NCBI GenBank assembly: GCA_948144175.1
Contig: CANXME010002184.1
Location: 136,001-200,000 of the forward strand
DNA: 64,000 bases
Origin: Closterium sp. NIES-65
Lineage: Eukaryota > Streptophyta > Zygnematophyceae > Desmidiales > Closteriaceae
Reading direction: 5' to 3'
Positions 33,367 to 63,900 of this stretch are shown here, piece by piece. The position numbers and the translations under genes are program-made. Within the stretch, counting starts at the first letter, position 1; each line of letters starts with the position of its first letter. Under the pieces are notes generated by a model. That model ran no database searches, was not told where the DNA came from, and worked only from the letters and a program-made list of their open reading frames with translations.

Positions 33367-36300
33367 AGCGGCTGCTGCTGAAGTGGCTGTGACAATGGGA
33401 GCAAGGAAATCAGCCTCAGTGGCAGCAGATGGCGCCTCTTGCTCCAGGAACAGCGGCAAGCCTCCCAGGTATGGGTATGGGTTAATGCTTTGAGGTGCAT
33501 CCGAACTGGGCTAGGCATGGGATGGTGTGGTAAGCTGCATGGTGGTGTGCTGGCATGGATGGGTGGTATGCCTCTTGCTCTAGGAACAGCGGCAAGCCTC
33601 CCAGGTAAAGGGTATGGGATAGATTCAGGGCAAGTTGCACTCAGAATTGCAGATTCGTCGTAGTTTTCTCCTGTTCCTATCCCTCTGCGACCTGTGTGTC
33701 CTCCTGGGGCTCAGCTTTAATTTCTGCACTGCATATTACTAGTAGCTTCCCGATCAACCCCCCTCCCGTTATTTATTCCTTTTTCTCTGGTTCTCTGCTT
33801 CTCCCGTCTGCAGCCAGTGGGTTCTGTGCGGGTCAGCCCTTGATTCAGCGTCCAAGGTGAGAGATCTACCGCTTACAGCCACATGTACTGTGCTGTGACT
33901 GCATGTGATGTGACTGCATGTGATGTGAGTGCATGTGATGTGACAATACACCAATTTGTGGCACTTGCGTTCTGTGCGGGTCAGCCCTTGATTCAGCGTC
34001 CAAGGTGAGAGATCTACCGCTTACAGCCACATGTACTGTGCTGTGACTGCATGTGCTGTGACTGCATGTGATGTGACTGCATGTGATGTGACTGCATGTG
34101 ATGTGACAATACACCAATTTGTGGCACTTACGCTGTGTGGGTCAGCCCTTGATTCAGCGTCCAAGGTGAGAGATTCACAGGTTACAGCCACGTACGCTGT
34201 TATGTGACTCCATGGGATGTTGCTGTATAGGATGTGACTGTACGTGGAGTGGCAGATGACTTGACTTGCATATGATTTGACTGCATACGATTTGACTGCA
34301 TACGATTTGACTGCATACGATTTGACTGCATACGATTTGACTGCATACGATTTGACTGCGTATGATTTGACTGCATACGATTTGACTGCATATGATTTGA
34401 CTGCATACGATTTGACTGCATACGATTTGACTGCATACGATTTGACTGCATACGATTTGACTGCATACGATTTGACTGCAAACGATTTGACTGCATGTGA
34501 TTTGACTGCGTGTGATGGGTCTGCGTGTGGTGTTACGATAATCCAATATGTGACTGAAGTTGTGAGTAGCCTGATCACTAATCGCATTTCTAGTCTCAAC
34601 AACAGTCCCCCTTTACTGCACAAACCATCTTCCGCCACTCTCTCCCCACTTACCCCCCCCACCACCACCCCTCTATCTTTTCCCTCTCCCTCCTCTCCCC
34701 TTCCCCCTCTCCCCCAAATCCCCCCCAACTCTCCCCCACTCTCCCTCCCCCTCCCATAGGCCCGCCTAGTCAAATTCGCTGACGCAATGGGCGCACAGCT
34801 GACGTCAGACTGGAGTCCACGTGTCACCCACTTATTGGTCGGCACAGATTCCGAGGGGAAGGCACGGAGGACGCTCAAGATGGTGATGGCTATCCTGCAC
34901 GGGCAGTGGGTGCTTAGCAGCAAGTGTAAGTGTTTTGTTGTGTTTGGCAACAAATGCTTCGTTTAGCAGCAAGTGTGAGTGTTTTGTTGTGCTTGGCAAC
35001 AAATGCTTCGTTTAGCAGCACGTGTAAGTGTTTTGTTGTGCTTGGCAACAAATGCTTCGTTTAGCAGCAAGTGTAACTGTTTTGTTGTGTTTGGCAACAA
35101 ATGCTTCGTTTAGCAACAAGTGTTACTGTTGCATGCAACCTTCACCCATGCCCGACCCATGCCCCCACCCATGCCCCCACCCATGCCATCCTCCCCCACA
35201 GCCATCTCCCCAACCGCTGTGCCGGCTGAGGGTCCACTTGAGTTGCTCTGTGACTAGATGACTTCTGAGTCGACTCAACCCAACCGCTGTGCCTGCTGAG
35301 GGTCCACTTGAGTCGCTCTGTGACTAGATGACTTTTGAGTCGACTCAAAACCCAACCGCTGTGCCGGCTGAGGGTCCACTTGAGTTGCTCTGTGACTAGA
35401 TGACTTTTGAGTCGACTCAACCCAACCGCTGTGTCGGCTGAGGGTCCATTTGAGTTGCTCTGTGACTAGAGAACCAGGAAAGAACCACCCTTAGCTTTCT
35501 CTCTTTCCTCCTCGTTGCGCCCCCTCTCCCCTCCCACAACAGGGTTGCCATCCTCCCCCACCGCCGCTTCCCTGGCCTCCCTGCCTGCTGAGGGACCATT
35601 TGAGGTGCTCTGTGACTCGCACGACGAGTCTGGTGGGGCTACACGCGGCCGGCTGCACTATGCGGTGAGTGCACGGCTGTAGCACGGAGCATGATTATTG
35701 CAAGGCTGGCAGTAGGTGCTGTAGCAGTGCGAGTCTGAAGGCATATGAGGTACTCTGTGACTCGCACGACGAGTCTGGCGGGGCTACACGCGGCAGGCTG
35801 CACTATGCGGTGAGTGCACGGCTGTAGCACACATAGAGTGTGGCTGTAGCACGGCTGTAGCATATTTGAAAGCATGTGAGGTGCTCTGTGACTCGCACGA
35901 CGAGTCTGGCGGGGCTACACGCGGCAGGCTGCACTATGCGGTGAGTGCAGAGGACTGCTGTAGCACACATAGAGTGGCTGTAGCACCGCTGTAGCACGGC
36001 TGTAGCACGCCTGAATCAAGGATGGGCGGTAGCAGGACGGTTTATCTCTCCCCTATCCCATGCCTCCCTATCAGCCCATGGCCAAGGGTCATTCCTCGCC
36101 GCCTCCCCTCTTCACCAACATCACGGCGGTGTTTCTTTGGGGAAGCTTTTTCATTCCTCTCTTCTCCCCTCCATCTCCTCCCCTCCCATGCCGCCCATTC
36201 AGCCCATGGCCAAGGGTCAATTCCTCGCTGCCTCCCCTCTTCACCAATATCGCAGCCAGTGTTTTCGGAAGGCTCATTCGTCATCCCTTCTCTAGCTTCC

Positions 36301-37699
36301 CTTCCCATTCCTCTTGTCTCCCTGTTTTCCCCATGGCCAAGGGTCATACCTCTCCTCCCCTTGTGTGATGAGTAGACTCAAAAATCGACGCATCACACGC
36401 GTTGCAACAGCACCCCATGGCCAAGGGTCATACCTCTCTTCCTCTCTTTGCCAACATCATGGTGGTGGTTCTTCAGGGCAGCTTTCTCACTCCTCTTTTG
36501 AGTCAACTCAAAGGAGACTTTTGAGTCGAATCAAAGGAGACTTTTGAGTCGACTCTAAAGTCACCTCTCCTCCTCTCTTTGCCAACATCACGGTGGTGTT
36601 TCTTCAGGGCAGCTTTCTCACTCTCTTCTCCCCTCCATCTTCTCCCCTCCATTTTCTCCCCTCCATCTTCTCCCCTCCATCTTCTCCCCTCCTCTCTTCT
36701 CCCCTCCATCTTCTCCCCTCCATCTTCTCCCCTCCATCTTCTCCCCTCCATCTTCTCCCCTCCATCTTCTCCCCTCCATCTTCTCCCCTCCATCTTCTCG
36801 AACGCGGCACTCAGCCCTTCTCTCCTCCCCTTCGCTCCTCTTCCTTTCTCTCTCCTTCCGTCCCCGCTTCTCCCCTTCCATGTCTCCCATTCAGCCCATG
36901 GCCAAGGGTCATCCCTCGCCGCCCCCCCTCTTCGCCAGCATCACAGCGGTCTTTCTTGAGGGCGGCTTCCTCAGCCCTTCTCTCTCCTCTCCTCTCCCCT
37001 CTTCTCTCCTCCCCTCCCATGCCTCCCTATCAGCCCATCGGTAAAGGCCATCCCTTGCCGCCTCCCCTCTTCGCCAGCATCACAGCGGTCTTTCTTGAGG
37101 GTGGCTTCCTCAGCCCTTCCTTTGCTGACGTGGCAAGCATCCTCCAGGTGGGATTCGCTACAGGTAGCTTTGCCATCTCGCTATAATATTCCTCTGCAAC
37201 CCTTTCTGTTCCTCTCAATCAGTTTTTTGAGAATTCTAAAAAAAAAAAAAACAGATTCCACCATATCATCTGTAACCCTTACCCATACAAATCTCCCCAA
37301 AAACCCCATTTGTGTTACCACCCCTCAATCCCCTATTTTCCTTTCTTCCCTTCCCAGTGCGGTGGCGGCACCGTCATTCCAAGCAGCGCCTTACAGTCCC
37401 CCACAGCCAAGACCCTTCTTGCTGCCTTCTCCAACCCCTCCAACACAACAAACAGCACCACCATTGCCGCCGAAAAAAGGAGAGGAGAGGAAGGGGAGAC
37501 GAAAATACTCTTGGTGGTGTATGCAGATGTGCCTGCAAACACACCCAGTGGCTCGGGTAAGATGCGGCGGGAACTGGCGCTGGTGGAGAAGCGGAGGGAA
37601 GCTGCTGGGCAAGTGGGGAAGGAGGTGGGGGCTCGTGGCTGTGTGACGCATAACTGGATCATTGATTCGGCTGCTGCGTTTGAGCTGAAACCATTCTGA
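30163..37699 (+). CDS. BRCA1/BARD1-like DNA-repair protein (ePHD finger and tandem BRCT), ten-exon model
   Basis: Exons: 30163-30552, 30777-30880, 31418-31604, 31840-32392, 32547-33468, 33814-33856, 34760-34925, 35543-35664, 37034-37147, 37358-37699. All have GT-AG borders, phases match and the sum is 980 codons plus TGA. Residues about 119-240 form an extended PHD finger: RCSFCDQTSSDE, ICVHEDCLLW, YCTVCGGRGAALGC, HTYHVPCARRTPGC, YVLSCPQH. Residues 241-718 are a low-complexity linker with a poly-Ala run of about 30 and VTKDVTIKG-like repeats. BRCT 1 is about 720-830 (QWVLCGSAL, LVKFADAMGAQL, VTHLLVG, ILHGQWVLSSKW), BRCT 2 about 832-978 (LFASITAVFL, CGGGTVIPS, VTHNWIIDSAA). In plants such proteins act in homologous-recombination repair through phosphopeptide-binding BRCTs. 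No RING domain precedes the ePHD, unlike typical BRCA1/BARD1. Introns are full of copies of neighbouring exon borders. Confidence 0.82.
30900..31417 (+). repeat. intron 2 with decoy copies of exon 2 end and exon 3 start
   Basis: 30935-30976 repeats the end of exon 2 with its donor (ATGCGTCCACAAGGATTGCC then TTCTCTGGTGAGTTCAG). At 31128-31195 and 31262-31330 are two copies of the start of exon 3 (around GTGCATTTCACCAAGGGGCG and GAACGTGCAGAAGGAGCTGC), the second with its own acceptor CCGCAG. Only the third copy, 31418 on, runs into the zinc-finger codons. Confidence 0.8.
33280..33385 (+). repeat. GCT trinucleotide run encoding poly-Ala
   Basis: About 30 consecutive GCT/GCC/GCA triplets inside exon 5 of the BRCA1-like gene. 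A length-variable site is likely. Confidence 0.9.
33567..34190 (+). repeat. introns 5 and 6: copies of exon 5 and exon 6 ends with donors
   Basis: 33567-33610 repeats the last 30 nt of exon 5 and its donor (AACAGCGGCAAGCCTCCCAG-GTAAAG). Exon 6 end plus donor (GGGTCAGCCCTTGATTCAGC, GTCCAAGGTGAGAGAT) recurs at about 33966-34020 and 34129-34182. TGACTGCATGTGATG microsatellite units separate the copies. Confidence 0.85.
34262..34512 (+). repeat. 15-bp minisatellite in intron 6
   Basis: About 16 copies of TGACTGCATACGATT. All frames are open in places because the period is a multiple of three; not coding. Confidence 0.92.
34918..35125 (+). repeat. intron 7: copies of the exon 7 end and donor
   Basis: Four to five units of about 60 bp, each with TTTAGCAGCAAGTGTAAGTG followed by TTTTGTTGTGCTTGGCAACA. 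The first unit contains the true exon 7 end (AGCAGCAAGT-GTAAG). Confidence 0.88.
35211..35475 (+). repeat. decayed copies of exon 8 upstream of it, punctuated by a palindrome
   Basis: Four copies (about 65 bp) of GGCTGAGGGTCCACTTGAGT TGCTCTGTGACTAG, a worn version of exon 8 (GCTGAGGGACCATTTGAGGT). Copies are joined by TTTTGAGTCGACTCAAAA (35333-35350, perfect) or variants of it. Confidence 0.85.
35665..35990 (+). repeat. intron 8: two copies of exon 8 end with donor
   Basis: 35745-35815 and 35877-35946 repeat GAGGTGCTCTGTGACTCGCA through CTGCACTATGCG-GTGAGTG, i.e. the last 66 nt of exon 8 and its donor, separated by CTGTAGCACGG repeats. Confidence 0.88.
36040..37033 (+). repeat. intron 8: copies of the acceptor and start of exon 9, plus CT-rich minisatellite
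   Basis: At least six copies of CAGCCCATGGCCAAGGGTCA and the following exon 9 start (about 36065, 36198, 36335, 36410, 36565, 36893). 36480-36560 carries three GACTTTTGAGTCGA-type palindromes. 36620-36800 is a CTCCATCTTCTCCC minisatellite (14-15 bp). The copy at 37034 continues into the exon used in the model. Confidence 0.82.
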
Positions 37700-39149: not shown

Positions 39150-39156
39150 TATAAAA
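39150..39156 (+). promoter_or_regulatory. TATA box of the Gly/Lys-rich protein gene
   Basis: TATAAAA about 160 bp upstream of the ATG, followed by a pyrimidine-rich start-site region (CTCTCGTCCCGCAC). Confidence 0.6.
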
Positions 39157-39315
39157 ACCTCTCGTCCCGCACATAATTGTCATCAGTTCCCATCTCATGC
39201 TTCCACCTCGTGATCTTCCATTCCCGTTTTCTTCGATTAGCCTCACTTCGCCTCGAGTAATCCTCTTTCCGCTGGTTCGTGGCACTTCGACAAGCGTCGA
39301 GATTCAGCTGCTAGA

Positions 39316-40322: not shown

Positions 40323-40382
40323 AAGGCTATTGCAATAGCTAGGGGGTTGTAAAATTACTTGTTTTTGTATTACTAATGCTGT

Positions 40383-40584: not shown

Positions 40585-40589
40585 GCTGT

Positions 40590-41012: not shown

Positions 41013-41465
41013 GGGAGAAGAGAACAGAACTGCTGCGCTGTTGCCATACTGCCGCGCTGTTGCCATACTGCCGCGCTGTTGGCATACCACCATGCCACCG
41101 TGTCACCATGTCACCATGTGGCCATGCCATGTGCTGCCATGCTGCCATGCCGTATGCTGCCATGCGGTTTGCTATACCGCCATACCACGAGGTGTGGCTG
41201 TTGCGGTACGAATCAAGTCAGCACCTGTTGGATCGGATTGGAATGGAATGGGACAAAGGAGGTTGCTGGTTGGTGGTTGCCATGCTGCCATGCCATGCAA
41301 TCACCATACTGCCATACCACAAGGTATGGCTGTTGATTTTTTATTCGACTCAAAAGTCACCTCAATGGGACAAAGGAGATTGCTGCCATGCCATGTTGCC
41401 ATGCCATGCAGTCACCATACCGCCATACCACGAGGTGTGGTTGCTGCCAGTATGAAAAGTCAGCA
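41013..41465. repeat. short imperfect repeats (GCCATACTGCC / CACCATGTCACC family)
   Basis: Mixed 7-20 bp repeats including CCATACCACGAGGTGTGGCT three times and a worn palindrome remnant (ATTCGACTCAAAAGTCAC) at about 41346. Confidence 0.7.
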
Positions 41466-41470
41466 CCTGT

Positions 41471-41977
41471 TGGAATGGAATGGAATGGGATGGAATGGGA
41501 TGGAATGGGATGGAGTGGGATGGAATGGGATGGAGTGGGATGGAATGGGATGGAATGGGATGGAATAAGATGGAATGGAATGGAATGGAATGGGATGGAA
41601 TGGGATGGAGTGGGATGGAATGGGATGGAGTGGGATGGAATGGGATGGAATGGGATGGAATAAGATGGAATGGAATGGGATGGAATGGGATGGAATGGGA
41701 TGGAATGGAATGGAATGGAATAAAATGGGATGGAATTGGATGGAATGGAATGGGATGGAATGGGATGGAATGGGATGGAATGGAATGGAATGGAATGGGA
41801 TGGAATGGGATGGAATGGAATGGAATGGGATGGAATGGGATGGAATGGGATGGAATGGAATGGAATGGAATGGAATGGGATGGAATGGAATGGAATGGAA
41901 TGGGATGGAATGGGATGGAATGGGATGGAATGGAATGGAATGGGATGGAATGGGATGGAATGGACCGGAGTGGATTG
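41471..41977. repeat. TGGAA/TGGGA pentamer satellite
   Basis: About 100 units of TGGAA and GGGA alternating (TGGAATGGGATGGAATGGGA), about 0.5 kb. Long open frames on both strands here are periodicity artefacts. Confidence 0.95.
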
Positions 41978-42079
41978 AATAGGAACAAAGAGATTTGCTG
42001 GTCGCTCATCGATGAAGGACAGCAGAAGCCCTGTTCTCAAGAAAAACAAAAAGGCAACACGGTTCAAAACCAGCAAGCG

Positions 42080-42669: not shown

Positions 42670-42745
42670 GCTGTCGGAGAAACAGCTCTGCTCGTCATCT
42701 GCCTGCATTCTAACTCTCTTCTTCTTCTCTGTTCCTTCAGCTGCC

Positions 42746-45700
42746 TCAGCCACTCTCTGCCCCCTCCTGTGCCCGTGCTTGAGCAGCTCGAGCGCGGGTC
42801 ACAGGACCAGTACGCTGAGGCCCGGTCCCTCTGATCACGGCTGTGTTCGTCTGATGCTCCCTCAACAGCGCCCCTTTATCGTTTTCCAAGACCAGCACCC
42901 CCGAAGGGCGCACCTCCTTGACTTTCCAGCGCACTGTCCCCAATCCCACGTCTAGAGTGTCCTGCTTTGCTCTCTTCAAATAAACTTCCTGCCCTTCCCA
43001 GACGCCCCTCGCCGTTCTCCCCTCACTTTTCCGTTGCCGCTGTTCGTATCTCCTGGCATCCCGCAGCTGTGCGGTGTGCAGATTTTCCAGCGCGGCTGGC
43101 ATCATGTGTCGCATGTAGCGCGCTCTCACCTCTGACAGGGCTACCCAGTTCTTAATCGTGCCCGCTGTCACTGTGTCTGTCAACACCCGCGGTGCCCCCA
43201 CTGGCAGGATGGGCTCTCGTCCAAAGAGTAGGCTATACGGAGAATGATCCTTCAGCGCTGCCTGCTTCCCAAACCTGTATCCTGCCGCTATCCAGTCCAA
43301 CTCATCATCCCAATCCCTCTTCCTCTGCTCCCCGTAGGCCCGCAGCCCTCGCTTGAAGGTCTGCACCGCGCGCTCGGTCAGCCCGTCGCTCTGCGGGTGG
43401 TAGCGGGAGGTCTTTCGGTGCGTGATGCCAGACTCCTCCAGCAACTTCTTGAACTCTCCTTGGAACTCTGTTCCCTGGTCTGTGAGCACCTCACCGCACG
43501 CTCCAAACCGACACACCACCTGTGCCTTGAAGGCTGCTGCAATGTGCCTCGCGCTCTTGCTAGGGATGGCTCGCACCTCCAGCCACTTGCTCACATGTTC
43601 CACCATGAACACTATGTACTGATTCCCGCTCCTGCTTAGCGGCAGCTCTCCCGCGAGGTCTAGGGACCATCGGAACCCCAGCCCGCAGATCGGCAGTGAG
43701 TGCAGCTCTGATTTGGCCTGCGTCAGGTTTGCTTTGCTCCTCTGACATGCCTCACACCCCTCCACCCACTCCTTCACTTGCCTGCGCATCCCTTCCCACC
43801 ACCAGCCCGTCTTCAGCAGGTGCACGGTCCTCTCGTGCCCGAAGTGTCCCAGCTTAGTGTGCACTTCCTTGATCACTGCTTCACGGTCCTTGGGCGCAGG
43901 CACCAGCTTCCAGCCATCCTCCGTCTTGATCTGCAGCTGCTGCTGATACCACCTGTAGTGGTGCCCTCGTGCCCTCACCCTTTCTGACACCGTCTCATCC
44001 TCTTCGGGTTCTCCCTTCACCCATTCCATTGCCTTTGCATCCTGCCAGATGTCAGCTGGCCCCTTGCTCCCTTTTGCCCCGACCTGCTCCACCTCTCTTC
44101 CCAGCAAGATCAAGGTGTGTGCTGGCTCCGGCTCTGTTTCCTCCGTCCCCTGTGCTACCTGTTCTGCTTCCAGCGGCGGCGGGTTGCGGGAGAGACCATC
44201 AACGTGCTGCAGCGTCTTCCCCGGCCTGTGCTTGATCTTGAAATCATATTCCTGCAACTTCACTGCCCACCTCGCGTTCCTCCCTGTCAGCCCTGGTGTA
44301 GTCATCAGCCATGTGAGGGGCTGATGATCAGTGACTAGGGTGAATTCTCTGCCCTGCAGGTATATCCGGAAATGCCCGACCGCCCACACTGCCGCCAGCC
44401 CCTCCCCGATGTATGAGCTGTACTGTGCCTCCGCTGGGTTGCAGCTCCTGCTGGCGTAGGCCACCACCTTCTCCACTCCCTCCACCTCCTGGCATAGTAT
44501 TGCCCCCATCCCTTGGCTACTCCAGTCGGTGTACAAGATGAAGGGCTGATCTGCTGCTGGCAGCCGCAGCACGGTTGCTGTCTTCACGGCTGTCATGAGG
44601 TCTTGCAGCGCCTCTCTCTGCTTTTCTCCCCACTCCCATGCCTTGTCTTCGCGCAGCATCCCGTTCAGCACCGTCGCTCGCTTACTGAAGTTCGGCACGA
44701 AGCGCCTGTAGTAGCTGAGGAAGCCCAAGACCGCACGCAGTCCTAATTTGTCTCGCGGTTCCCTTAGCCTGTCCAGCACTTGCACCTTTGCTTGCTGGAT
44801 CCCAATCTGCCCCCCTGTGACCTCATACCCCAGGTACTGTACTGTCCGCTCCCCCCACTTGCACTTGTTGGGATGGCACGTGAGCCCTGCTCCTTCTATG
44901 GCCGTCAGTGTTTTCTCCACATCCTCCAGGTGCTGCTGCTCGGTCAAACTGAAGATCACGACATCATCGATGTAGCACGCCGCGTGTTCTATTCCCCGCA
45001 GCACCGCGTCCATAACTCTCTGGAACACTGCCGAGGCGTTCCTCAGGCCGAAGGGCATGTACAGCCACTCGTACAGCCCATCCGGTCCGTGGAAGGCCGT
45101 TTTCTTCACGTCCTCCTCTCTTATCTTGATTTGATTGAACCCCTGTCGCAGGTCCAGCGTTGTGAAGAACACCCCGTCCGCCAACTTTTCAAAGAGCTCT
45201 TCTGCCATCGGCATGGGGTATCTATCTGGCACTGTGATCTTGTTAAGATCCCTGTAATCTCCGCACATCCTCCTACTCAGCACCTCGCCTGTCAAGTCCT
45301 TCCGGGCTGCCACCACGGTTGGGGTGGCGTACTCGGACTCTGACCTCCTAATCAGCCCGGCTTCCAGTAACTCCTTTATCTTCTCCCTACAGATCAATTC
45401 ATCCCCTGGTGGCATCTTCCTCCTGCGGTGGAACACCGGTTCGTCACTATTCAGCTTCAGCGCCATCTCTTTGATCTTACACTTCCCCAACTCCAGCAGG
45501 GTGAAGGCAAAGCCCTTCCTATGCTTGGCCAGTAGTGCCCGCATAGCTGCCCTCCCTTCCTCGCTCATGCTCTCACCTATCTTCCACTCTGGCTCCTGTT
45601 TCTGCAAGCAGGCCCACACCCCTTGCCTCACCGTCGCCACCGTGTTTTCTCCCTCCTTCAGTCCCCAGTGCAGCACTGTCTCTCTCCACATCCGCTGCAC

Positions 45701-49864: not shown

Positions 49865-49879
49865 GCTTGCACGCACACC

Positions 49880-49893
49880 CTTTCCGTTTGGTA
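49880..49893 (-). promoter_or_regulatory. primer-binding region, complementary to the element's own LTR
   Basis: Next to the 5' LTR the minus strand reads (A)TACCAAACGGAAAG. The LTR transcript strand contains CTTTCCGTTTGGTAT (3' LTR 42384-42398; the 5' LTR copy 49988-50002 has two mismatches). The 15-base complementarity suggests self-priming as in Tf1/sushi elements rather than a tRNA primer; no initiator-Met-like site is visible. Confidence 0.6.
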
Positions 49894-50273
49894 TGAATGA
49901 GACGTAACTCTCACCTCAAGGGTCCTCCCGGAGTGGTGTGCCACCTGTATGCAAAGCTGAGGTAACAACAGTCCACTATATGAAAGGATACCAAACACAA
50001 AGCATCAGAGCTGTGTGAGAGAGTGACTTTACCTGACTTGGGCTCGAGCCGTGCATTTCTCAATGTGCGGCTCGAGCCTGGGTTGGTTCAATCACATTGG
50101 TCGCGTGGATTTCCCCCTTGGTGCTTTCCTAACAACCTCGCGTCAACTTCCCTGGTTCCCCACCTACCTACCCTCGAATATGCACACACAACATTGCTAC
50201 ACCCAAACCACACCAGAACTACACCTCGATCTAACTGGCACCGTATATGCACAACCGTGCATATTCAGTGACA
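49894..50273 (-). repeat. 5' LTR of gypsy 3, 380 bp
   Basis: Partner of 42290-42669 with four visible differences (T/G, GG/AC, G/A). Confidence 0.92.
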
Positions 50274-52985
50274 AGGAGGGCACGTTCCGCTTCTTCGTGT
50301 GATGAGTCGATTTTTGAGTCGACTAAAAAATCAACAGTTTGTCACACAATGCACACCATGCTCCAATTTAACCGGCACCACTCACTTCACAGGAGGGCAC
50401 GTTCGGCTTCTTCGTATGATGAGTCGATTTTTTGAGTCGACTAAAAAATCAACAGTTTGTCACACAATGCACACCATGCTCCAATTTAACCGGCACCACT
50501 CACTTCACAGGAGGGCACGTTCGGCTTCTTCGTGTGATGAGTCGATTTTTGAGTCGACTGAAAAATCAACAGTTTGTCACACAATGCACACCATGCTCCA
50601 ATCTAACCGGCACCACTCACTTCACAGGAGGGCACGTTCGGCTTCTTCGTGTGATGAGTCGATTTTTGAGTCGACTGAAAAATCAATAGTTTGTCACACA
50701 ATGCACACCATGCTCCAATTTAACCGGCACCACTCACTTCATAGGAGGGCGCGTTCGGCTTCTTCGTGTGATGAGTCGATTTTTGAGTCGACTAAAAAAT
50801 CAACAGTTTGTCACACAATGCACACCATGCTCCAATTTAACCGGCACCACTCACTTCACAGGAGGGCGCGTTCGGCTTCTTCGTGTGATGAGTCGATTTT
50901 TGAGTCGACTAAAAAATCAACAATTTGTCACACAATGCACACCATGCTCCAATTTAACCGGCACCACTCACTTCACAGGAGGGCGCGTTCGACTTCTTCG
51001 TGTGATGAGTCGATTTTTGAGTCGACTAAAAAATCAACAGTTTGTCACACAATGCACACCATGCTCCAATTTAACCGGCACCACTCACTTCACAGGAGGG
51101 CGCGTTCGGCTTCTTTGTGTGATGAGTCGATTTTTGAGTCGACTGAAAAATCAACAGTTTGTCACACAATGCACACCATGCTCAAATCTAACCGGCACCA
51201 CTCACTTCACAGGAGGGCACATTCGGCTTCTTCGTGTGATGAGTCGATTTTTGAGTCGACTGAAAAATCAACAGTTTGTCACACAATGCACACCATGCTC
51301 CAATCTAACCGGCACCACTCACTTCACAGGAGGGCACGTTCGGCTTCTTCGTGTGATGAGTCGATTTTTGAGTCGACTGAAAAATCAACAGTTTGTCACA
51401 CAATGCACACCATGCTCCAATCTAACCGGCACCACTCACTTCACAGGAGGGCACGTTCGGCTTCTTCGTGTGATGAGTCGATTTTTGAGTCGACTAAAAA
51501 ATCAACAGTTTGTCACACAATGCACACCATGCTCCAATTTAACCGGCACCACTCACTTCACAGGAGGGCGCGTTCGGCTTCTTCGTGTGATGAGTCGATT
51601 TTTTAGTCAACTAAAAAATCAACAGTTTGTCACACAATGCACACCATGCTCCAATTTAACCGGCACCACTCACTTCACAGGAGGGCGCGTTCGGCTTCTT
51701 CGTGTGATGCGTCGATTTTTGAGTCGACTAAAAAATCAACGGTTTGTCACACAATGCACATCATGCTCCAATTTAACCGGCACCACTCACTTCACAGGAG
51801 GGCGCGTTCGGCTTCTTCGTGTGATGAGTTGATTTTTGAGTCGACTGAAAAATCAACAGTTTGTCACACAATGCACACCATGCTCCAATCTAACTGGCAC
51901 CGCTCACTTCACAGGAGGGCACGTTCGGCTTCTTCGTGTGATGAGTCGATTTTTGAGTCGACTGAAAAATCAACAGTTTGTCACACAATGCACACCATGC
52001 TCCAATCTAACCGGCACCACTCACTTCACAGGAGGGCACGTTCGGCTTCTTCGTGTGATGAGTCGATTTTTGAGTCGACTGAAAAATCAACAGTTTGTCA
52101 CACAATGCACACCATGCTCCAATCTAACCGGCACCACTCACTTCACAGGAGGGCACGTTCGGCTTCTTCGTGTGATGAGTCGATTTTTGAGTCGACTGAA
52201 AAATCAACAGTTTGTCACACAATGCACACCATGCTCCAATCTAACCGGCACCACTCACTTCACAGGAGGGCACGTTTGGCTTCTTCGTGTGATGAGTCGA
52301 TTTTTGAGTCGACTGAAAAATCAACAGTTTGTCACACAATGCACACCATGCTCCAATCTAACCGGCACCACTCACTTCACAGGAGGGCACGTTCGGCTTC
52401 TTCGTGTGATGAGTCGATTTTTGAGTAGACTGAAAAATCAACAGTTTGTCACACAATGCACACCATGCTCCAATCTAACCGGCACCACTCACTTCACAGG
52501 AGGGCACGTTCGGCTTCTTCGTGTGATGAGTCGATTTTTGAGTCGACTAAAAAATCAACAGTTTGTCACACAATGCACACCATGCTCCAATTTAACCGGC
52601 ACCACTCACTTCACAGGAGGGCGCGTTCGGCTTCTTCGTGTGATGAGTCGATTTTTGAGTCAACTAAAAAATCAACAGTTTGTCACACAATGCACACCAT
52701 GCTCCAATTTAACCGGCACCACTCACTTCACAGGAGGGCGCGTTCGGCTTCTTCGTGTGATGCGTCGATTTTTGAGTCGACTAAAAAATCAACGGTTTGT
52801 CACACAATGCACATCATGCTCCAATTTAACCGGCACCACTCACTTCACAGGAGGGCGCGTTCGGCTTCTTCGTGTGATGAGTCGATTTTTGAGTCGACTG
52901 AAAAATCAACAGTTTGTCACACAATGCACACCATGCTCCAATCTAACCGGCACCACTCACTTCACAGGAGGGCACGTTCGGCTTC
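50274..52985 (-). repeat. 117-118 bp tandem array, about 23 units, each carrying an exon end and splice donor
   Basis: On the minus strand each unit has GAAGCCGAACGTGCCCTCCT-GTGAA followed by the donor GTGAGTGGTGCCGG, then GGAGCATGGTGTGCATTGTG and the palindrome-like TTTTTGAGTCGACT. The first 25-28 nt copy the end of the unique exon at 52961-53128. Units are about 95-99% alike. A variant block (GATGCGTCGATT... ACATCATG) recurs at about 51709 and 52760, i.e. a nine-unit higher-order repeat of about 1.05 kb. Long plus-strand frames are artefacts of a period near a multiple of three. Confidence 0.93.
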
Positions 52986-55900
52986 TCATCCTCCCCAGCA
53001 CGATGCTCACTCCTCTGTACTTTGCGTAGGCTCGGCCGAAGCTGAGCGCCAGGGTCGGTTGCTTGTTGCGGTATGTGCAGCGCTGGTACATGCGGTTCGG
53101 GGTTCGACCCCCCTTTCCCCGGCATGGGCTGGAGGGTGGAGGGGCGAAGGTAGGGGTGCAGAGTAATGCAGAGGGGTGCAAACAGAAAGTGTGCGAAAGT
53201 GAAAGGGGTTCCGACCCTTTTCCAGACATGGGTTGGGTTGGAGGGTTGATTGTGGAAAGGTAGGAGTGCAGAGGAGTGCAGGGGAGACTTACAGCTGGGG
53301 CACATTCGTGATAGTCCTCCACTGAGTCCCTCTCGTCCGCGGTACTATCCGCAGCTCCAGCCCTCCAGCGCACCCTCCTTTATCCCCCTCCTCATCTCAT
53401 CTCATCCTCCCTAGGGCAGAACTCTCCACTTACAGCTGGGGCAGATACTTGATTGTCCTCCATTGAGTCCCTCTCGTCCGCGGTACTATCCGCAGCTCCA
53501 GCCCTCCAGCGCACCCTCCTTTATCCAGCACTCGCACCGTCATATTCTTAGGGTAAAACCCCCTATTTACACTCGGCGGGGTGATTTCCACCGAATAAGC
53601 GTGCCCCGCTAAGAGAGTCGCCGTTATCGTTCGAAGCACAGGCTGCGAGCCTTTGTACAGTTTGGAATAGTCGTTTCGGTCTCCTAGGGAATAGAAATAG
53701 GCTCGGTCGGTTAGCCGGGTGAACTTTGCAGTGGAATAGGGTCGGATCCGGCGCTTCTTGATTTGGTTCCGCGATAGGTTCGGCACGCCGTACTCAAGGT
53801 AGGTCAGGGCAATGGCTCGGTAGCAGACGGACCTGGAGGGTAGGTGAGGAGGAGACGGAGAAGGAAGAAAGGAGCTCAGATTGAAACACACTCAAATGTT
53901 AAAACACACTCAAGGGCAGATAAGCTTTCTGTAAGGTAAAATGCTGCGTGAAATCTTGATACATGAAACCTGGAATGTTCAGGTGCACAGGTGAGTGGCT
54001 TTGTTTTGACACTCCAAATATTCTGACACTCCCGAAGTTCTAATCTGAGACACCTCCAACCTCCAGCTCTGCAGCAACCCAAATCAAGGATGCCCCACAC
54101 CGTACCTGACACACAGGCTCGGAAACGCACGAACCTGCATGAGTAGAGCGACCAGGTGTCGTGGTACTGGCAGAGGGAGGCTCGGACCGAGGTTGGCGGC
54201 AGGATCGGGTGGAACGGAGCAACGAGGTAGGCTGGGCGGGCGGCGCTGGGGAAGGCTGGAGAGGAGGAGGAGAGGAAAGAGCCATCGGCGTCGTGGAGGG
54301 CGTAGAAGCGAGCATTGGAGCCTCCCCTGGGGACAGGGCGGTTGGGCTGGAGGGTAGAATGGGAGAGAGGAGCAGAGGGGAAAGGGGAGGCATGGAGAGG
54401 GAAAGTCAAGTAAGGAGAGAAGGGATTCATCTGCAATGTGCAGCTCGAAGGTGGGGTGGCGGGTGGCGCTGGGGAAGGCTGGCGAGGAGGAGGAGAGGAA
54501 AGAGCCATTGGCGTCGTGGAGGGCGTAAAAGCGAGCATTGGAGCCCTTCCTTCCTGGGGACAGGGCAGCTGGGCTGGAAAAGGGAAAATGGGCGGAGGAA
54601 GGGAGAGGAGCAGAGAGAAAGGGAATCAAGGAGAGGAAGGAGCCATGGGCATCGTGCAGCTCGAAGGTGGGGTGGCGGGCGGCGCTGGGGAAGGCTGGCG
54701 AGGAGGAGGAGAGGAAAGAGCCATCTGCATTGTGCAGCGGGTAGGACCGAGCGTTGGATCCTCCCCTCTCCTCCCACCTTACCAGCACATACCATAAATA
54801 GCAGCACTTACTGCAAATAGCAGCACTTACTGCAAATAGCAGCACTTACTGCAAATAGCAGCACTTACTGCACATTGCAGCACTTACCACGAATAGCAGC
54901 ACTTACTACAAATAGTAGCACCTACCACAAATAGCAGCACTTACCACAAATAGCAGCACTTACCGCATTGGGAACAGCATAGAGTCGCCTTGTGGCAGAT
55001 GTGAACTGAAGACCCTGACGAATGCAGCAGCAGGGAATGAAAGGGAAGAGGGAATAGGGCGTAGGGAGGAGGGGGCAATGTGTGTAGAACTCAGCTTAAT
55101 CTTAGTTGCTTTTGAGAATTCTTAAAAGTGACAGGTCTGCAAAGGAGGGACTGAGAGGGTGCATGGATTAGTAAGGAGGAGGGAGGAGAGAGAGAGGTGA
55201 TAAGTGCTGGGTTCCACACTCATCATCGCTGGGTTCCACACTCATCATCGCTGGGTTCCACACTCATCATCGCTGGGTTCCACACTCATCATCGCTGGGT
55301 TCCAGCTCCCACCTGCCTTGTTCACTGCCAGCCAGCCAATGCAAGAGGAGATCTCTTCAGAGTGGGGCCGCACTCCCACTCAACCACACACACACCAACT
55401 GATACACTCCCGTACTGTCCCTCTCACCTTCACACTCATCATCGCTGGGTTCCAGAACCCACCCGCCTTGTTCACTGCCAACACAAGAGCGGAGCTTTTC
55501 AGAGAGGGTGGCACTCCCACTCATTCACTCACTCACTCCCTCACACATCAACTCTCCGTTACTCACGCACACAGCAGAACTCACTTACTCTAGCCCCCTC
55601 TCATCTTCACACTCATCGCTGGGTTCCAGAACCCACCCGCCTTGTTCACTGCCAACACCAGAGCGGAGCTCTTCAGAGCATGGCCGCACTCACACTCATT
55701 CTCACTTACCCTCCCCTAATCTCGCTCTCTCTCACTCATTCAATCGCTCCCCCTCTCACCTTCACACTCATCGCTGGGTTCCAGAATCCGCCTCCCTTGT
55801 TCACTGCCAACACCAGAGCCGAGCTCTTCAGAGTGGGGCCAGTCACACTCAACTACACTCCCTTACTCACTCACGCAGACTACCACTCACTCACTCACTC

Positions 55901-58900
55901 ACTCCCTCCCTCCCTCTCACCTTCACACTCATTGCTGGGTTCCAGAATCCGCCTGCCTTATTCACTGCCAACACCAGCGCAGAGCTCTTCAGAGTGGGGC
56001 CGCACTCACCAAACCCCGAGAACCTGATGTGTTGAGGGAAGAAGGAAGAGGGGAAAGCGGGGAAGTGCAGACCTGCTTTTGAGTCGACTCAAAAGTCATG
56101 AGGGTTGTTGTGAGGACCCTAAGCAGAGCAGAGCTCTTGAGAGTGGGGCCGCATTCACCAAACCCCAAGAACCTGATGTGATGCAGTGCGGTGCGGATGA
56201 AGCGAGGGGTGTTTTTTTGAGTCGCCTCAACAAAGTACGCTACAGAAGAAAAAAAATCACACCCCACACAGAGAGTGCCTGCAACAGCACACAGTATGTC
56301 GCCTCAACAAAGTACGCTACAGAAGAAATCACACCCCACACAGACTGGGGCCGCACCGCACCGCAGTCAACAAAACCCCAAGATCCTGATCAGCATCACC
56401 CCAATGGGATGTGCCATGCCTTCTCTCCAACAGCCAACCCCCTCTAAGCCTCCACACCCCTCCCTCTCACCTGCTGTTCACCACCCTGTTTTGAGACGTC
56501 TCAAAACCCCCTCCACCCCTCCACGCCCCTCCCTCTCACCTGCTGTTCACCACCCTGTTTTGAGACGTCTCAAAACCCCCTCTACCCCTCCACGCCCCTC
56601 CCTCTCACCTGCTGTTCACCACCCTGTTTTGAGACGTCTCAAAACCCCCTCTACCCCTCCACGCCCCTCCCTCTCACCTGCTGTTCACCACCCTGTTTTG
56701 AGACGTCTCAAAACCCCCTCTACACCTCCACGCCCCTCCCTCTCACCTGCTGTTCACCACCCTGTTTTGAGACGTCTCAAAACCCCCTCTACCCCTCCAC
56801 GCCCCTCCCTCTCACCTGCTGTTCACCACCCTGTTTTGAGACGTCTCAAAACCCCCTCTACCCCTCCACGCCCCTCCCTCTCACCTGCTGTTCACCACCC
56901 TGTTTTGAGACGTCTCAAAACCCCCTCTACCCCTCCACGCCCCTCCCTCTCACCTGCTGTTCACCACCCTGTTTTGAGACGTCTCAAAACCCCCTCTACC
57001 CCTCCACGCCCCTCCCTCTCACCTGCTGTTCACCACCCTGTTTTGAGACGTCTCAAAACTCCCTCTACCCCTCCACGCCCCTCCCTCTCACCTGCTGTTC
57101 ACCACCCTGTTTTGAGACGTCTCAAAACCCCCTCTACCCCTCCACGCCCCTCCCTCTCACCTGCTGTTCACCACCCTGTTTTGAGACGTCTCAAAACCCC
57201 CTCTACCCCTCCACGCCCCTCCCTCTCACCTGCTGTTCACCACCCTGTTTTGAGACGTCTCAAAACCCCCTCTACACCTCCACGCCCCTCCCTCTCACCT
57301 GCTGTTCACCACCCTGTTTTGAGACGTCTCAAAACCCCCTCTACCCCTCCACGCCCCTCCCTCTCACCTGCTGTTCACCGCCCTGTTTTGAGACGTCTCA
57401 AAACCCCCTCTACCCCTCCACGCCCCTCCCTCTCACCTGCTGTTCACCACCCTGTTTTGAGACGTCTCAAAACCCCCTCTACCCCTCCACGCCCCTCTCA
57501 CCTGCTGTTCACCACCCTGTTTTGAGACGTCTAAAACCCCCCTCTACCCCTCCACGCCCCTCCCTCTCACCTGCTGTTCACCACCCTGTTTTGAGACGTC
57601 TCAAAACCCCCTCTACCCCTCCACGCCCCTCCCTCTCACCTGCTGTTCACCACCCTGTTTTGAGACGTCTCAAAACCCCCTCTACCCCTCCACGCCCCTC
57701 CCTCTCACCTGCTGTTCACCACCCTGTTTTGAGACGTCTCAAAACCCCCTCTACCCCTCCACGCCCCTCCCTCTCACCTGCCGTTGACCACCCTGTTTTG
57801 AGACGTCTCAAAACCCCCTCTACCCCTCCACGCCCCTCCCTCTCACCTGCTGTTCACCACCCTGTTTTGAGACGTCTCAAAACCCCCTCTACCCCTCCAC
57901 GCCCCTCCCTCTCACCTGCTGTTCACCACCCTGTTTTGAGACGTCTCAAAACCCCCTCTACCCCTCCACGCCCCTCCCTCTCACCTGCTGTTCACCACCC
58001 TGTTTTGAGACGTCTCAAAACCCCCTCTACCCCTCCACGCCCCTCCCTCTCACCTGCTGTTCACCACCCTGTTTTGAGACGTCTCAAAACCCCCTCTACA
58101 CCTCCACGCCCCTCCCTCTCACCTGCTGTTCACCACCCTGTTTTGAGACGTCTCAAAACCCCCTCTACCCCTCCACGCCCCTCCCTCTCACCTGCTGTTC
58201 ACCGCCCTGTTTTGAGACGTCTCAAAACCCCCTCTACCCCTCCACGCCCCTCCCTCTCACCTGCTGTTCACCACCCTGTTTTGAGACGTCTCAAAACCCC
58301 CTCTACCCCTCCACGCCCCTCTCACCTGCTGTTCACCACCCTGTTTTGAGACGTCTAAAACCCCCCTCTACCCCTCCACGCCCCTCCCTCTCACCTGCTG
58401 TTCACCACCCTGTTTTGAGACGTCTCAAAACCCCCTCTACCCCTCCACGCCCCTCCCTCTCACCTGCTGTTCACCACCCTGTTTTGAGACGTCTCAAAAC
58501 CCCCTCTACCCCTCCACGCCCCTCCCTCTCACCTGCTGTTCACCACCCTGTTTTGAGACGTCTCAAAACCCCCTCTACCCCTCCACGCCCCTCCCTCTCA
58601 CCTGCCGTTGACCACCCTGTTTTGAGACGTCTCAAAACCCCCTCTACCCCTCCACGCCCCTCCCTCTCACCTGCTGTTCACCACCCTGTTTTGAGACGTC
58701 TCAAAACCCCCTCTACCCCTCCACGCCCCTCCCTCTCACCTGCTGTTCACCACCCTGTTTTGAGACGTCTCAAAACCCCCTCTACCCCTCCACGCCCCTC
58801 CCTCTCACCTGCTGTTCACCACCCTGTTTTGAGACGTCTCAAAACCCCCTCTACCCCTCCACGCCCCTCCCTCTCACCTGCCGTTGACCACCCTATTCGC

Positions 58901-60926
58901 CTCCAGCATGCCGCACAGCTTCACGCCAACCGGGCTGCAAGGCAAGGCCCTCCCTCCCCTTCTCTCCAACCTCCAACCCCCTCTACCCCTCCCAGTTCCC
59001 TTCTCTCACCTTGAGTTGACCACCTTATTCGCCTCTAGCATGCCGCTCAGCATCACACCGAGCGGGCTCTTGAACGTGCCATCTCTCCCTCCCACCTCCT
59101 TCCTATAACCCTCTTTTCCCCACCCCCTCCGTTCGCTCACCTGCTGTTCACCACCCTATTAGCTTCCAGCATGCCGCTCAGCTTCACTTGACTCAGCATC
59201 ACGCCAATGGGGCTCTTGAACGTGCCGCCGTCCCGCGAATAGAAGAACCCCGCAGCCACTCGCCCCCTCGTCGCCATCTCCTTCACCCTCTGCACCGCCT
59301 CGATCTCCCCACCCCCATCATCCTCTTCCTCCTCCTCTTCGTCCTCCACTTCCTCTTCGTCTACCTCATGGCCATCCTCACTACCATTGTAAGCCGTTTC
59401 ATCGTCATTGTAAACTAATTGATCTTCATTGTAAGCTGACCCATCCTTTAGATAAGTGCTAAGAATTTTAGCAGTAGATTCACCCACCCCCTCGTCATCT
59501 CCCTCATCCGCTTTATAAGTTGATCCATTGCTCTCTCCACGCACCCTCCTCTTCCTCCATCCCCACTTCCCTCCCCTTCCCATAACCCCTTTAGTAGCTG
59601 CTTCAGCTGTCTCGCTATATTCATCCTCGTTATAGTCATCCTCCATACTGTACTGTGGCGCTGTTAGCATCAGACCAGGCGACTGCCAGTTCGACGTCGT
59701 GTACCCTTCCATTTCATCCTCGTTAGTAGCAGCTTCAATGTGCAGGCTAGACGATGCTGCTCCTGCTGGTAGCTGTGGTGTTGCCTGTGTTGATGGCATG
59801 AGCGGTGTTGGTGCGTGTGTTGACGGCATGAGCGGTGTTGGTGCGTGTGTTGATGGCATGAGCGCGTGTGTTGACGGCAGTAGCTGTGGCGGGGTTGGTG
59901 GCATGAGGTGTGTCGATGCAGCATCATACGGTGTTGACCCTCCGGAGGATTTGCTGTTGGGGCACAGGGGAAGGAGGAAACATACGGCATTAGCTGTGGT
60001 GTTGCATGCGTTACTGGCATTAGCTGTGTCGGTGCGTGTGCTGCCGGCAGTAGCTGTTTCGGGGTTGAACGGCATAAGTTGTGGACGGGTTGGTGGCATG
60101 AGGTGTGTCGATGCAGCATCATACGGTGTTGACCCTCCAGATTATTTACTGTTGGGGCAAAGGGGAAGGAGGAAACATATGGCATGAGTTGTGGGGTTGA
60201 AGGCATGAGTTGTAGAGGGGTTGATGGCATTAGTTGTTTCGGTGCAGCATCATATAGTGTTGAACCTCCAGATGATTTGCTGTTGGGGCAGGGGAAGGAG
60301 GAAATGCGTGTGTTGATGGCAGTAGCTGTGGCGGGGTTGGTGGCATTAGGTGTGTCGATGCAGCATCATAAGGGGTTGAACCTCCGGATGGTTTGCTGTT
60401 GGGGCGAAGAGAAGGAGGAAAAACATACACTGGGAGCAGTAGGAGTGGGGAAAAGATTGTTGAGTCAACACAAAGATAGGTGCAGCATCATATGGTGTTG
60501 ACCCTCCAGATGATCTGCTGTTTGGGGCAAAGGGAAGGAAGAGATATGTACAGGCATGTGGAGCAGAGTGCAAGGGGTCAACAGGGGCAGGCTAGGGAGG
60601 ATGAGGATGCAAAAGTGGGACTGGCAGTGTTACCTGCACTGCACAGTGATGCTTCTTATCCGCACACAAATGTATATGTTTTTTGAGAATTCTAAAAAAA
60701 ACAGGTTCCGCACACAAATGTATATGTTTTTTTAGAATAAAAGAGAAACAGGTTCCGCACACATATGTATATGTATCTCCTCCGCACACACACTCTTACC
60801 TGCAGGCCATACGGCCAATGAACGTGCTTGAGAGAATGAGGATGCCAAAGTTGCGGTTCAGGTTGATTCCAATGCGGTTGTTGAGAATGGTGGGTGGATA
60901 GTTGTGTGATGTGTTACCTGCAGCAC

Positions 60927-60975
<49 letters not shown>

Positions 60976-63900
60976 CGTGCATGTGTATCTGCACACACAC
61001 ACAGTCTTACCTGCAGGCGGTGCGGCTGATGAAGATGTAGGTGAGAATGAGGATGCCAAAGTTGGGCCGGCAGTCTTACCTGCACGGCACAGTGCTTTTT
61101 ATCCACACACACACACACATTCTTACCTGCAGGCAGTGCGGTCGATGAATGTGTATGTGAGGATGAGGATGCCAGATTTGCAGTTGATGTTGACGGCAAA
61201 GCGGTTCTTCAGGAAGGTGGGTGGATAGATAGTTGCACGTTCCTGTTGCATAAACTCATTCCCACACCCATGTGGCATTCTTACCTGCAGGCAGTGCGGT
61301 CGATGAATGTGCAGGTGAGGATGAGAATGCCAAAGTTGGACTGGCAGTGTTACATACATGTGTAACCGCACCCATGTGACACTCTTACCTGCATGCGGTG
61401 CGGTCGATGAATGTGCATGCAAGGATGAGAATCCCAAAGTTGCAGTTGAGGTCCATGGCGACGCGGTTGTTCAGAAAGGTGGGTGGGTAGTTGCGTTGCG
61501 TGCTCTGTTATAATACATATGCATGTTTCGTGTATCCGCACACACACACATTGTTTTGTTACCTGCAGGCGGTGCGGCCAATTAAGGTTGCATGCGAGAA
61601 TGAGGATATTTTTTTAGTCGACACTATTTTTGAGCCTATTTTTGAGTCGACTAAAAAATATGCCAAAGTTGCGGTTGAGGTCGATGGTAACGCAGTTGTT
61701 GAGGAAGGTGGGTAGTTGCGTGTTTTGTTACCTTCAGCACATATGTACATACATGCACGTATATCCGTACACAACACACACACACACTCCTACCTTGAGG
61801 TGTATTTTGAGGCGCCTCAAAATATGTACATGCATGTACACAACACACACACACTCGTACCTGCAGGTGGTGCCGCCGATGAAGGTGCATGTCAGGATGA
61901 GAATGCCGAAGTTGCGGTTGAGGTCGATGGCGACGCGGTTGTTGAGGAAGGTGGAGTGGCTAGGATGGTTGCATTGCATGTTTTGCTACACAAACTTAGA
62001 TCCGCACCCATCTGGTGAGAGCGTTACCTACCTGCTGCAAACTGTGCGGCCGATGAAGGTGCAGGCAAGGATGAGAATCCCAAAGTTGCGGTTGAGGTCG
62101 ATGGCGACGCGGTTGTTCAGAAAGGTGGACTGGCTGACGGTGATGCTCTGGCTGTTGTACAGAAATACACTGGGAGGGGGAGTGGGGGGGAAGGATGGGT
62201 GGAGAGAGAGTTGCGGTTCAGGATTGATGGCAATGTGGGTGTTGACCAAGGTGGAGTGGCTGACAGTGATGCTCTGGCTGTTGTACAGGAATACGCTGGG
62301 CGAAGGGGGAAGGGTGGGGGGAAAGCAGGGAGGAGGGAGGGAGGGAGGGTGGATAGGGAGTTGCGATTCAGGTCGATGGCAACATGGGTGTTGACGAAGG
62401 TGGAGTGGCTGACAGTGATGCTCTGGCTGTCGTACAGAAATACGCTGGGAAGGGGGGAAGGAGGGTGGTGGGTGGTTGGTAGACGGGGAAAGTAAGAAAG
62501 AAATGGAATGTGGGTGTTGACGAAGGTGGAGTGGCCGTCGGTGATGCTCTGGCTGTTGTACAGAAATACGCTGGGCGGGGGGGAAAGGTGGGGAGGAGGG
62601 GGAAAAAAAGGGAGGGGAAAGGAGGACGGGGACGGAGCGTGACGACGGCTCAACAGATACAAGAGGAGCGGATAAAGAACCCACATTGAAGAAAGAAAAG
62701 TACGACAGCCGCAGAAAAGAAAGAAAAGTACGACAGCCGCAGAAAAGAAAGAAAAGTACGACAGCCGCAGAAAAGAAAGAAAAGTACGACAGCCGCAGAA
62801 AAGAAAGAAAAGTACGACAGCCGCAGAAAAGAAAGAAAAGTACGACAGCCGCAGAAAAGAAAGAACAGTACGACAGCCGCAGAAAGGAAAGAAAAGTACG
62901 ACAGCCGCAGAAAAGAAAGAAAAGTACGACAGCCGCAGAAAAGAAAGAAAAGTACGACAGCCGCAGAAAAGAAAGAAAAGTACGACAGCCGCAGCCGCCG
63001 CAGCAGCAGGAGCGGCGCTGCTCACTCAAGAGAAAGATTTTGGGCAGGGCAGCATCACTCACCCGATGGGGTTGCTGTAGATGAGAGAGTGAGAGATGCG
63101 CACCTGAACGTGAAGCGGGATGGGGGACGGGATGGGAAGAGGGGAGAGGAGAGGAGTGAATGAAGGTTGAAGAAGCAGCAGCAGCAGCAGCAGCAGCATT
63201 GGCGCTCACCCAATGGGGTTGCTGTTGATGAGAGAGAGTGAGAGATGCGCACGTGGGTTGACTTTTGAGTCGACTCAAAAGTCGATGAGAGAGTGAGAGA
63301 TGCGCACGTGGGCCAGAGAGAGGGGAAGCGATGGGAGGGAAACGGGGGGTTAGAGGACAAGGAGGAGAGAGGTGAGTGGAGGAGATGCGGGAAGAAAATG
63401 GGTGAGTGGAGGAGAGCGGGGAATCCGAATTTTGAGACACTAACAATGGAGCCGTGGATTTGACTGGAGTTGACTGACAATGGATGGTGTCGACTTGACT
63501 GTAGTTGACTGGAGTTGACTTACTTGGATCGCCTTCCTACCTTTCCCTTTCGAGGGGAACATGGGGTGAGCACCATGCGGGTAGGTAGGTGTGGAGACCA
63601 AAGAGGGTGTTGACTACCTTTGACCAGCATTGGGTAGCGTTGACTAACGTTGACTAGCGTTGACTTACTTGCACCGCCTTCCTTCTTATACCTCTCGAAG
63701 GGAACATTGGGGCGGGCGCCGTGAGGGTAGGTGCGTGCGCAGGCTAAAGCGGGCGTTGGAGTGAAGCACATTGCCATCTGCACTCGCAGACTTGCATTGA
63801 CTGGCGTTGACTTGCGTTGACTTACTTGGAGCCCCTTTCTTCCTTTCCCTTGCGAGGGGAACGCAGGCCGGGCGCCGTGCGGGTAGGTGCAGAGGCCAAA

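Follow-up and report, generated by a model that had tools for sequence, protein, structure and literature searches.

Palindromes in the window

The stretch of DNA analysed here, referred to as the window, comprises 64,000 bp from Closterium sp. NIES-65 (assembly GCA_948144175.1, contig CANXME010002184.1, positions 136,001 to 200,000, or C1886:136001-200000 in our labels, where C numbers denote contigs and L numbers loci). It contains many copies of a short palindrome in which TTTTGAG and CTCAAAA flank a self-complementary 4-bp centre. The palindromes belong to a dispersed family with two-fold symmetry, four cores, subfamily-specific mirrored arms and long duplications of host sequence at the borders. 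An earlier note on this DNA had described such palindromes between tandem copies of exon borders in the introns of two genes. The 18-bp pattern TTTTGAGNNNNCTCAAAA has 37 exact matches in the window and none in 100 dinucleotide shuffles. The sole coding domain of the host genes that was verified is an extended PHD finger (PF13771) in 31104-31634.

The exact palindrome at 35333..35350 has a TCGA core and lies between copies at 35209-35328 and 35351-35470, which are 96% alike. Each of these copies comprises a pair of ~50-bp units with an additional worn palindrome, and the segment 35209..35470 is a short tandem array of host piece plus palindrome with a period of ~70 bp, 3.7 copies and worn palindromes at 35263 and 35405. 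In the segment 36432..36623, the site is palindromic as noted before and is located between 61-bp host copies (36432-36492 and 36563-36623, 95% alike), but it consists of three worn TCGA palindromes in tandem (36496-36559), none of which is exact. A worn palindrome at 41338 is placed between 58-bp copies in 41278..41446 (41278-41335 and 41389-41446, 88% alike). The exact TCGA-core palindrome at 56077..56094 has 60-bp host copies on its two sides (55975-56034 and 56124-56183, 92% alike) that are not flush with it, as they are separated by 89 bp. The AATT-core palindrome at 60681-60698 has one mismatch and stands between identical 22-bp copies (60659-60680 and 60707-60728) in the segment 60659..60728, and these copies belong to a 2.4-copy tandem of 47 bp. 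The segment 61767..61869, which contains a GCGC-core palindrome at 61805-61822 between copies at 61767-61802 and 61836-61869 (34-36 bp, 86% alike), is read as an old insertion. The insertion at 63232..63312 looks young, with a TCGA-core palindrome at 63263-63280 between identical 26-bp copies (63232-63257 and 63287-63312). The statement that the palindrome lies exactly between copies is thus not borne out at 56077.

Two tandem arrays also carry the palindrome. The 69-bp array at 56436..58894 comprises 35.8 copies and contains 33 exact ACGT-core palindromes (56489-58827). The 117-bp array at 50274..52986 comprises 23.2 copies and contains the worn form GATTTTTGAGTCGACTRAAAAATC, which was said to occur in every unit and was matched 20 times. 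Together with the 33 in the 69-bp array, the palindromes at 35333, 56077, 61805 and 63263 were confirmed as exact. The earlier note saw no palindrome in the transposon-only part at 1-29 kb; the first 35.2 kb hold none with three or fewer mismatches, and the sole hit with four mismatches, at 13769, is of a kind that a Markov control over 304 kb produced three times.

A dispersed palindrome family

The assembly, with 874,075,685 bases in 2400 contigs, contains 30,327 exact matches to TTTTGAGNNNNCTCAAAA, as compared to four matches to the same pattern reversed. Copies with an NCGN centre number 24,964 (control 0); this pattern also admits non-palindromic centres, while the places listed show just TCGA, ACGT and GCGC. 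Copies with an AATT centre number 2,601 (control 0), and the NCGN and AATT centres jointly account for 27,565 of the 30,327 copies. The centre is self-complementary in 46 of the 50 TTTTGAGNNNNCTCAAAA places listed, with array members counted singly, while only 16 of the 256 possible tetramers are self-complementary. The four exceptions, TTGA, AATC, ACAT and TCAA, are one change away from TCGA, AATT, ACGT and TCGA, respectively. The earlier observation that the core differs between loci and yet stays self-complementary is therefore confirmed, with AATT as a fourth type beside TCGA, ACGT and GCGC, and the four cores serve as marks of subfamilies.

The window and loci L001-L024 together make up 304 kb, with 200 kb of it selected for the presence of listed palindromes; L001-L020 come from three contigs only (C6, C9 and C10), the first in the list. 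This set contains 94 perfect palindromes of at least 16 bp, with array members taken singly and 33 of them from the 69-bp array of the window. Family members account for 87 (84 with CTCAAAA and three with CTCAAA), and the seven with other sequences equal in number those obtained from a mononucleotide shuffle of the 304 kb. Copies with one to three mismatches number 97, beside 84 exact ones, array members included (Markov control 0), and the exact count therefore underestimates the size of the family. Four 10-kb stretches taken blind (L021-L024) contain no copy with three or fewer mismatches. Their lack of copies is little informative, since the genome mean predicts ~1.4 exact copies there.

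The symmetry extends beyond the core. The arms outside the 18-bp core are mirrored over at least two bases in 36 of 59 loci (6% by chance) and over at least four bases in 16 of 59 (0.4% by chance). The mirrored extension within a locus exceeds that between loci with the same core, both for TCGA (2.76 versus 1.43) and for AATT (3.95 versus 0.72), with none of 5000 permutations reaching these values in either group, and the mirroring is therefore more than a common consensus. For the GCGC core, with six loci, the corresponding count was 31 of 5000. The arms fall into groups, such as GTCACCTC for TCGA and TCAACCTCAAACAAA, GTGATTTCA, AACATACC and GTCACTCC for AATT.

Longer arms were seen around the second core of L020:7251-7850, where the palindrome spans 52 bp with the structure ACGT-20-ACGT-20'-ACGT. 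This form recurs at no fewer than 38 further places among the matches listed (40 of 231 candidates scored, with allelic copies separate and each array once). At 33 of these 38 places it is 95-100% identical over 48-59 bp, the match ends near the ends of the palindrome, and the surroundings differ from place to place. In some copies one end is complete while the other is truncated, in several cases exactly at TTTTGAG (L069, L077 and L084). In a tandem array of 73-bp units at C1316:475367-477403, the units match the 52-bp ACGT element in part, with 41 bp identical.

Searches of the literature with the four 14-base core sequences, at any position in the text, gave no match, and searches with descriptive terms found no account of this palindrome family, in a body of literature that holds few subscription papers.

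Host duplications flanking the palindromes

To score duplications, the left and right flanks of a palindrome were aligned, with the end of the left copy and the start of the right copy required to lie within 30 bp of the 18-bp core and a score of 30 taken as a pass. The rows comprise 59 palindromes, the first of each array, omitting those less than 160 bp from the previous palindrome or near the end of a stretch. The test was passed by 42 of the 59, as compared to none of 472 mismatched flank pairs. It replaced an earlier, looser test that 27.5% of random positions passed. A stricter version, applied to 80 loci (the 59 and a further 21), accepted a site only if two copies, with no third in the neighbourhood, abutted within 12 bp. 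It was passed by 38 of the 80 palindromes but by only 14 of 800 random positions. When any number of abutting copies is accepted, 57 of the 80 palindromes pass.

Samples not picked for their duplications gave 18 of 20 for TCGA and 9 of 20 for AATT (13 of 20 at score 24), as compared to 2 of 400 in the mismatched control. In the TCGA sample, L066 is from the NCGN listing and the rest are from a thinned list in which most close-set array places were skipped; the selection of L025-L044 and L047-L066 likewise skipped places already taken and most close-set places, that is, tandem arrays. The 52-bp ACGT form was sampled by match rather than by duplications (L068-L087), and its longer arms were accommodated by a tolerance of up to 45 bp per side. 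Duplications at score 30 are present in 15 of these 20 loci, or in 13 of 18 if each allelic pair is treated as a single locus. Identical pairs of host copies here reach 82 bp (L071), 43 bp (L079), 32 bp (L080), 25 bp (L073) and 20 bp (L081). Among 29 clean loci with two copies, duplicated pieces measure 16-71 bp (median 36) and inserts 19-54 bp (median 28); overall, the duplicated host stretch ranges from 16 to ~100 bp, and is mostly 16-80 bp. The palindromic element and the long duplications of variable length at its borders are well supported.

These lengths bear on whether the family could be a classical miniature inverted-repeat transposable element (MITE). MITEs are non-autonomous, inverted-repeat and high-copy elements, and are in these respects similar to the palindromes, but they are longer and make short target duplications of fixed length. 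The palindrome would in that case represent two fused terminal inverted repeats of a cut-and-paste transposon, and the long copies would be unrelated tandem duplications. Although palindromic form, high copy number and a size too small for a gene agree with this, in the two-copy test the long copies adjoin the element far more often than expected by chance, their length varies (16-71 bp in the clean loci, and up to 82 bp when identical) and a clear border motif was not seen, which makes a MITE very improbable. The idea that each 69-bp unit is an element bounded by inverted ends, with a target duplication of 4 bp, was also rejected, as such ends are missing from the outer borders of loci with two copies.

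The same duplicated pieces were used to assess the earlier claim that exon borders in particular are duplicated, by a mechanism acting on splice junctions. The 69-bp unit of the window contains CTCACCT, which is donor-like on the minus strand, and so do some other duplicated pieces. However, the donor motif GTRAG occurs 21 times in the 2148 bp of duplicated sequence (9.8 per kb) and 58 times in 8368 bp of 100-bp flanks (6.9 per kb), an enrichment that is weak at best. Because the duplicated pieces are just slightly richer in GTRAG than the flanks, targeting of splice junctions is unsupported, and a duplication process directed by them is extremely unlikely. No clear target motif was found at 58 borders; G before and C after the border are weakly favoured (43% each; chi-square up to 8.0 with 3 degrees of freedom over 20 positions), a bias that the procedure for drawing the borders could itself produce. 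Most simply, the copied splice sites are by-products of insertions into intron-rich genes, with some of the insertions later amplified into arrays.

Several loci contain more than one element. Two elements of different subfamilies share a gap, with no host copy between them, in L074 (AATT and ACGT) and L044 (TCGA and AATT), while in the gaps of L069 and L077 a complete element is followed by a second one that is cut exactly at TTTTGAG. At L007:4156-4215 and in L030, two subfamilies occupy successive gaps between three nearly identical host copies. Repeated units occur inside the inserts of L016 and L069. Across the loci scanned (L025-L044 and others), palindromes of different subfamilies are often less than 200 bp apart, with 22 such neighbouring pairs, and regional density may explain much of this neighbourhood.

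The gaps shared by two subfamilies, as well as the trimmed ends, would fit free palindromic DNA fragments from an abundant extrachromosomal source that end joining captured as filler in the repair of staggered double-strand breaks. The source would have to make one sequence family in four mirrored versions, however, and the exact TCGA, ACGT and GCGC cores have only 0, 1 and 1 matches in the viral contigs of IMG/VR, from which records near this genome are possibly missing. Filler capture is accordingly held to be unlikely. A 20-base arm had no match in IMG/VR, the two exact core matches have no flanking copies, and a virus as the source of the palindromes was rejected on these grounds.

At L079, an element lies inside another palindrome of the family, and 17 bp of the latter (GACTTTTGAGACGTCTC) flank it on both sides. 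Since the sequence at this site before the insertion is known, the simplest view is that the flanking copy originated in the insertion itself, and L079 is the nearest thing to an empty site. This locus also speaks to the proposal that hairpin-driven template switching at replication forks makes palindromes and tandem copies purely locally. Template switching is able to make both mirrored arms and tandem copies, but it would have to generate the same 18-bp pattern 30,327 times and the 52-bp form at the 38 or more further places, at loci that are unrelated, and the complete element in L079 is nested between copies of known family sequence. Such a local origin, one of two mechanisms offered in the earlier note, is therefore highly improbable. 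The other, a mobile palindromic mini-element, is supported by the findings of one dispersed family, subfamilies with longer arms in common, a 52-bp form in different surroundings and host duplications at the borders.

Proposed insertion mechanism and relation to known elements

We consider it likely, with a probability of roughly 0.78, that the palindromes are ultra-short, non-autonomous elements, mobile within the nuclear genome, that make long target duplications of variable length, some of which have grown into arrays. The element would be a palindrome of ~18-52 bp, perfect when young, with TTTTGAG and CTCAAAA beside the self-complementary 4-bp centre and with outer arms that are subfamily-specific and often trimmed at one or both ends. 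Its insertion would duplicate a target stretch X, mostly of 16-80 bp, to give X-palindrome-X. The simplest cause of the duplication would be a pair of widely staggered nicks, tens of bp apart, that are filled in. Slippage or unequal exchange could then expand X-palindrome-X into tandem arrays such as those at 56436-58894 and 50274-52986. Both halves of the palindrome were probably made from one template of half its length, since even the central tetramer is self-complementary and varies symmetrically from one subfamily to another; as one example, the two 3' ends at a break might both be elongated along a single short template and then fused head to head. Structural selection on a hairpin would leave the loop free.

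Several observations weigh against this interpretation. Random positions of the same DNA passed the anchored test in 128 of 600 cases, which reflects a genome full of tandem repeats, and this background amounts to 109 of 800 when the copies need only abut. No duplication was found at score 30 in 20 of the 80 loci, chiefly those with an AATT core, a group that may be older, as it has fewer recognisable duplications. The permutation test for mirrored arms was weak for ACGT (303 of 5000, with seven loci), and the two arms disagree in 6 of the 29 clean loci where both are present. Once an element is inserted, conversion of one arm by the other might likewise maintain the symmetry. Finally, no empty allele was seen among the second copies, which are available for few single loci. 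Both haplotypes are at least partly present in the assembly, as indicated by L045 and L046, which are 99.1-99.4% alike. The allele of the 63263 insertion on contig C741 matches across all of 63232..63312 and is thus filled, and second copies are also filled for two palindromes in L020, for L080 and for L045:3129. The allelic pairs L071/L086 and L077/L078, as well as L045:4214, were found via the palindrome itself and could not have been empty. With no empty allele found, we infer mobility from dispersal and structure.

The copies of L007 are uninformative with regard to presence and absence, as L067 (C1658:28364-31396) and L007:6601-9600 differ by one mismatch in 2996 aligned bases. One of them has one more 37-bp tandem copy directly next to the palindrome at L007:6805, as if X-palindrome-X sites were prone to further tandem change.

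One way in which such an element could move is target-primed retroposition, in which a short hairpin RNA would be copied into staggered nicks by a reverse transcriptase of the LINE (long interspersed nuclear element) or Penelope type, similar to a minute short interspersed nuclear element (SINE). Target duplications of variable length are a feature of SINE and LINE retroposons and are also seen here, and copies that are complete at one end and cut at the other, as in L069, L077 and L084, point in the same direction. The repeated units in L016 and L069 resemble template jumping, for which later slippage would suffice too. However, a 3' tail was not seen by eye in the 29 clean loci, no promoter-bearing body was found in inserts that consist of the palindrome plus arms or pieces of them, and a hairpin RNA needs no self-complementary loop. 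Retroposition is therefore a possible but doubtful route for the mobile palindrome.

It is also conceivable, if only as a tentative proposal, that the family represents a new class of mobile DNA. The replicating unit would be half of a perfect palindrome, ~9-26 nt long, that is joined head to head via a self-complementary 4-nt end, and each insertion would remake the perfect palindrome and a host duplication of tens of bp. If so, the unit would be among the smallest replicating elements known and would produce tandem repeats and additional splice sites across the genome. The symmetric variation in centre and arms makes the identity of the copied unit testable from sequence alone. Half-unit repeats in L016 and C975 had suggested telomere-like addition, which was not kept as an explanation for the family at large: only 19 matches to two consecutive TCGA half-units exist, none of them in the first 6 kb of a contig, the contig end that this check covered.

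Among known nuclear and bacterial systems, the repetitive extragenic palindromic (REP) sequences of bacteria and the bacterial interspersed mosaic elements (BIMEs), which are moved by REP-associated tyrosine transposases (RAYTs), are similarly small, dispersed and numerous. They differ in being imperfect palindromes with loops, and they are not known to duplicate long stretches of host DNA. In plants, staggered breaks can give rise to tandem duplications with filler; these, like intron gain by tandem duplication, share the X-filler-X arrangement with X of tens of bp and a possible effect on introns, but their filler is not known to be one dispersed palindromic family. Introners, intron-generating elements that are themselves spliced out as introns, are a further class considered for comparison.

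The nearest known systems in size and form are mitochondrial. The palindromic GC clusters of yeast mitochondrial DNA, among them GC42, are reported to be likewise very short and dispersed, with merged forms and rapid turnover, and to have flanking repeats of 2-3 bp (PMC4478555). The hairpin repeats of sponge mitochondrial DNA and the double-hairpin elements of Allomyces are described as hairpin-forming and presumably mobile, with single, double and tandem forms (PMC2800124). A short dispersed palindrome, as in these elements, is present in the Closterium family. However, the sponge and Allomyces elements have stems with variable loops, and flanking duplications are reported to be lacking in Allomyces (PMC2800124). 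The family described here, with ~30,000 exact copies in an 874-Mb assembly, is symmetric about its centre and has duplications mostly of 16-80 bp, in contrast to the 2-3-bp repeats, or none, reported for the mitochondrial elements (PMC4478555, PMC2800124).

If the palindromes are indeed mobile, one tiny family would have seeded many short tandem duplications and the arrays derived from them in a single nuclear genome, and would lower the size limit for nuclear mobile elements. The long, variable target duplication combined with two-fold symmetry would be an insertion signature unmet by the element classes compared, and the family would be a concrete source of tandem repeats and duplicated splice sites in introns.

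Some other features of the DNA analysed were noted. The 10-bp TGGAATGGAA satellite at 41471-41964 and a 28-bp array of 10.9 copies at 62689-62994 are without family palindromes, and the open frame on the minus strand at 42746-49915 holds none with three or fewer mismatches. This frame encodes 2389 amino acids, the last 584 of which match the RT_RNaseH, integrase zinc-binding and integrase core domains, so its predicted product is a Ty3-like polyprotein; its middle part, by eye, may contain a stretch resembling a cytosine methyltransferase. A dispersed repeat of ~300 bp at L007:8903-9202 also occurs in many contigs, with overlapping matches ~150 bp apart on C1829, C117 and C1976.

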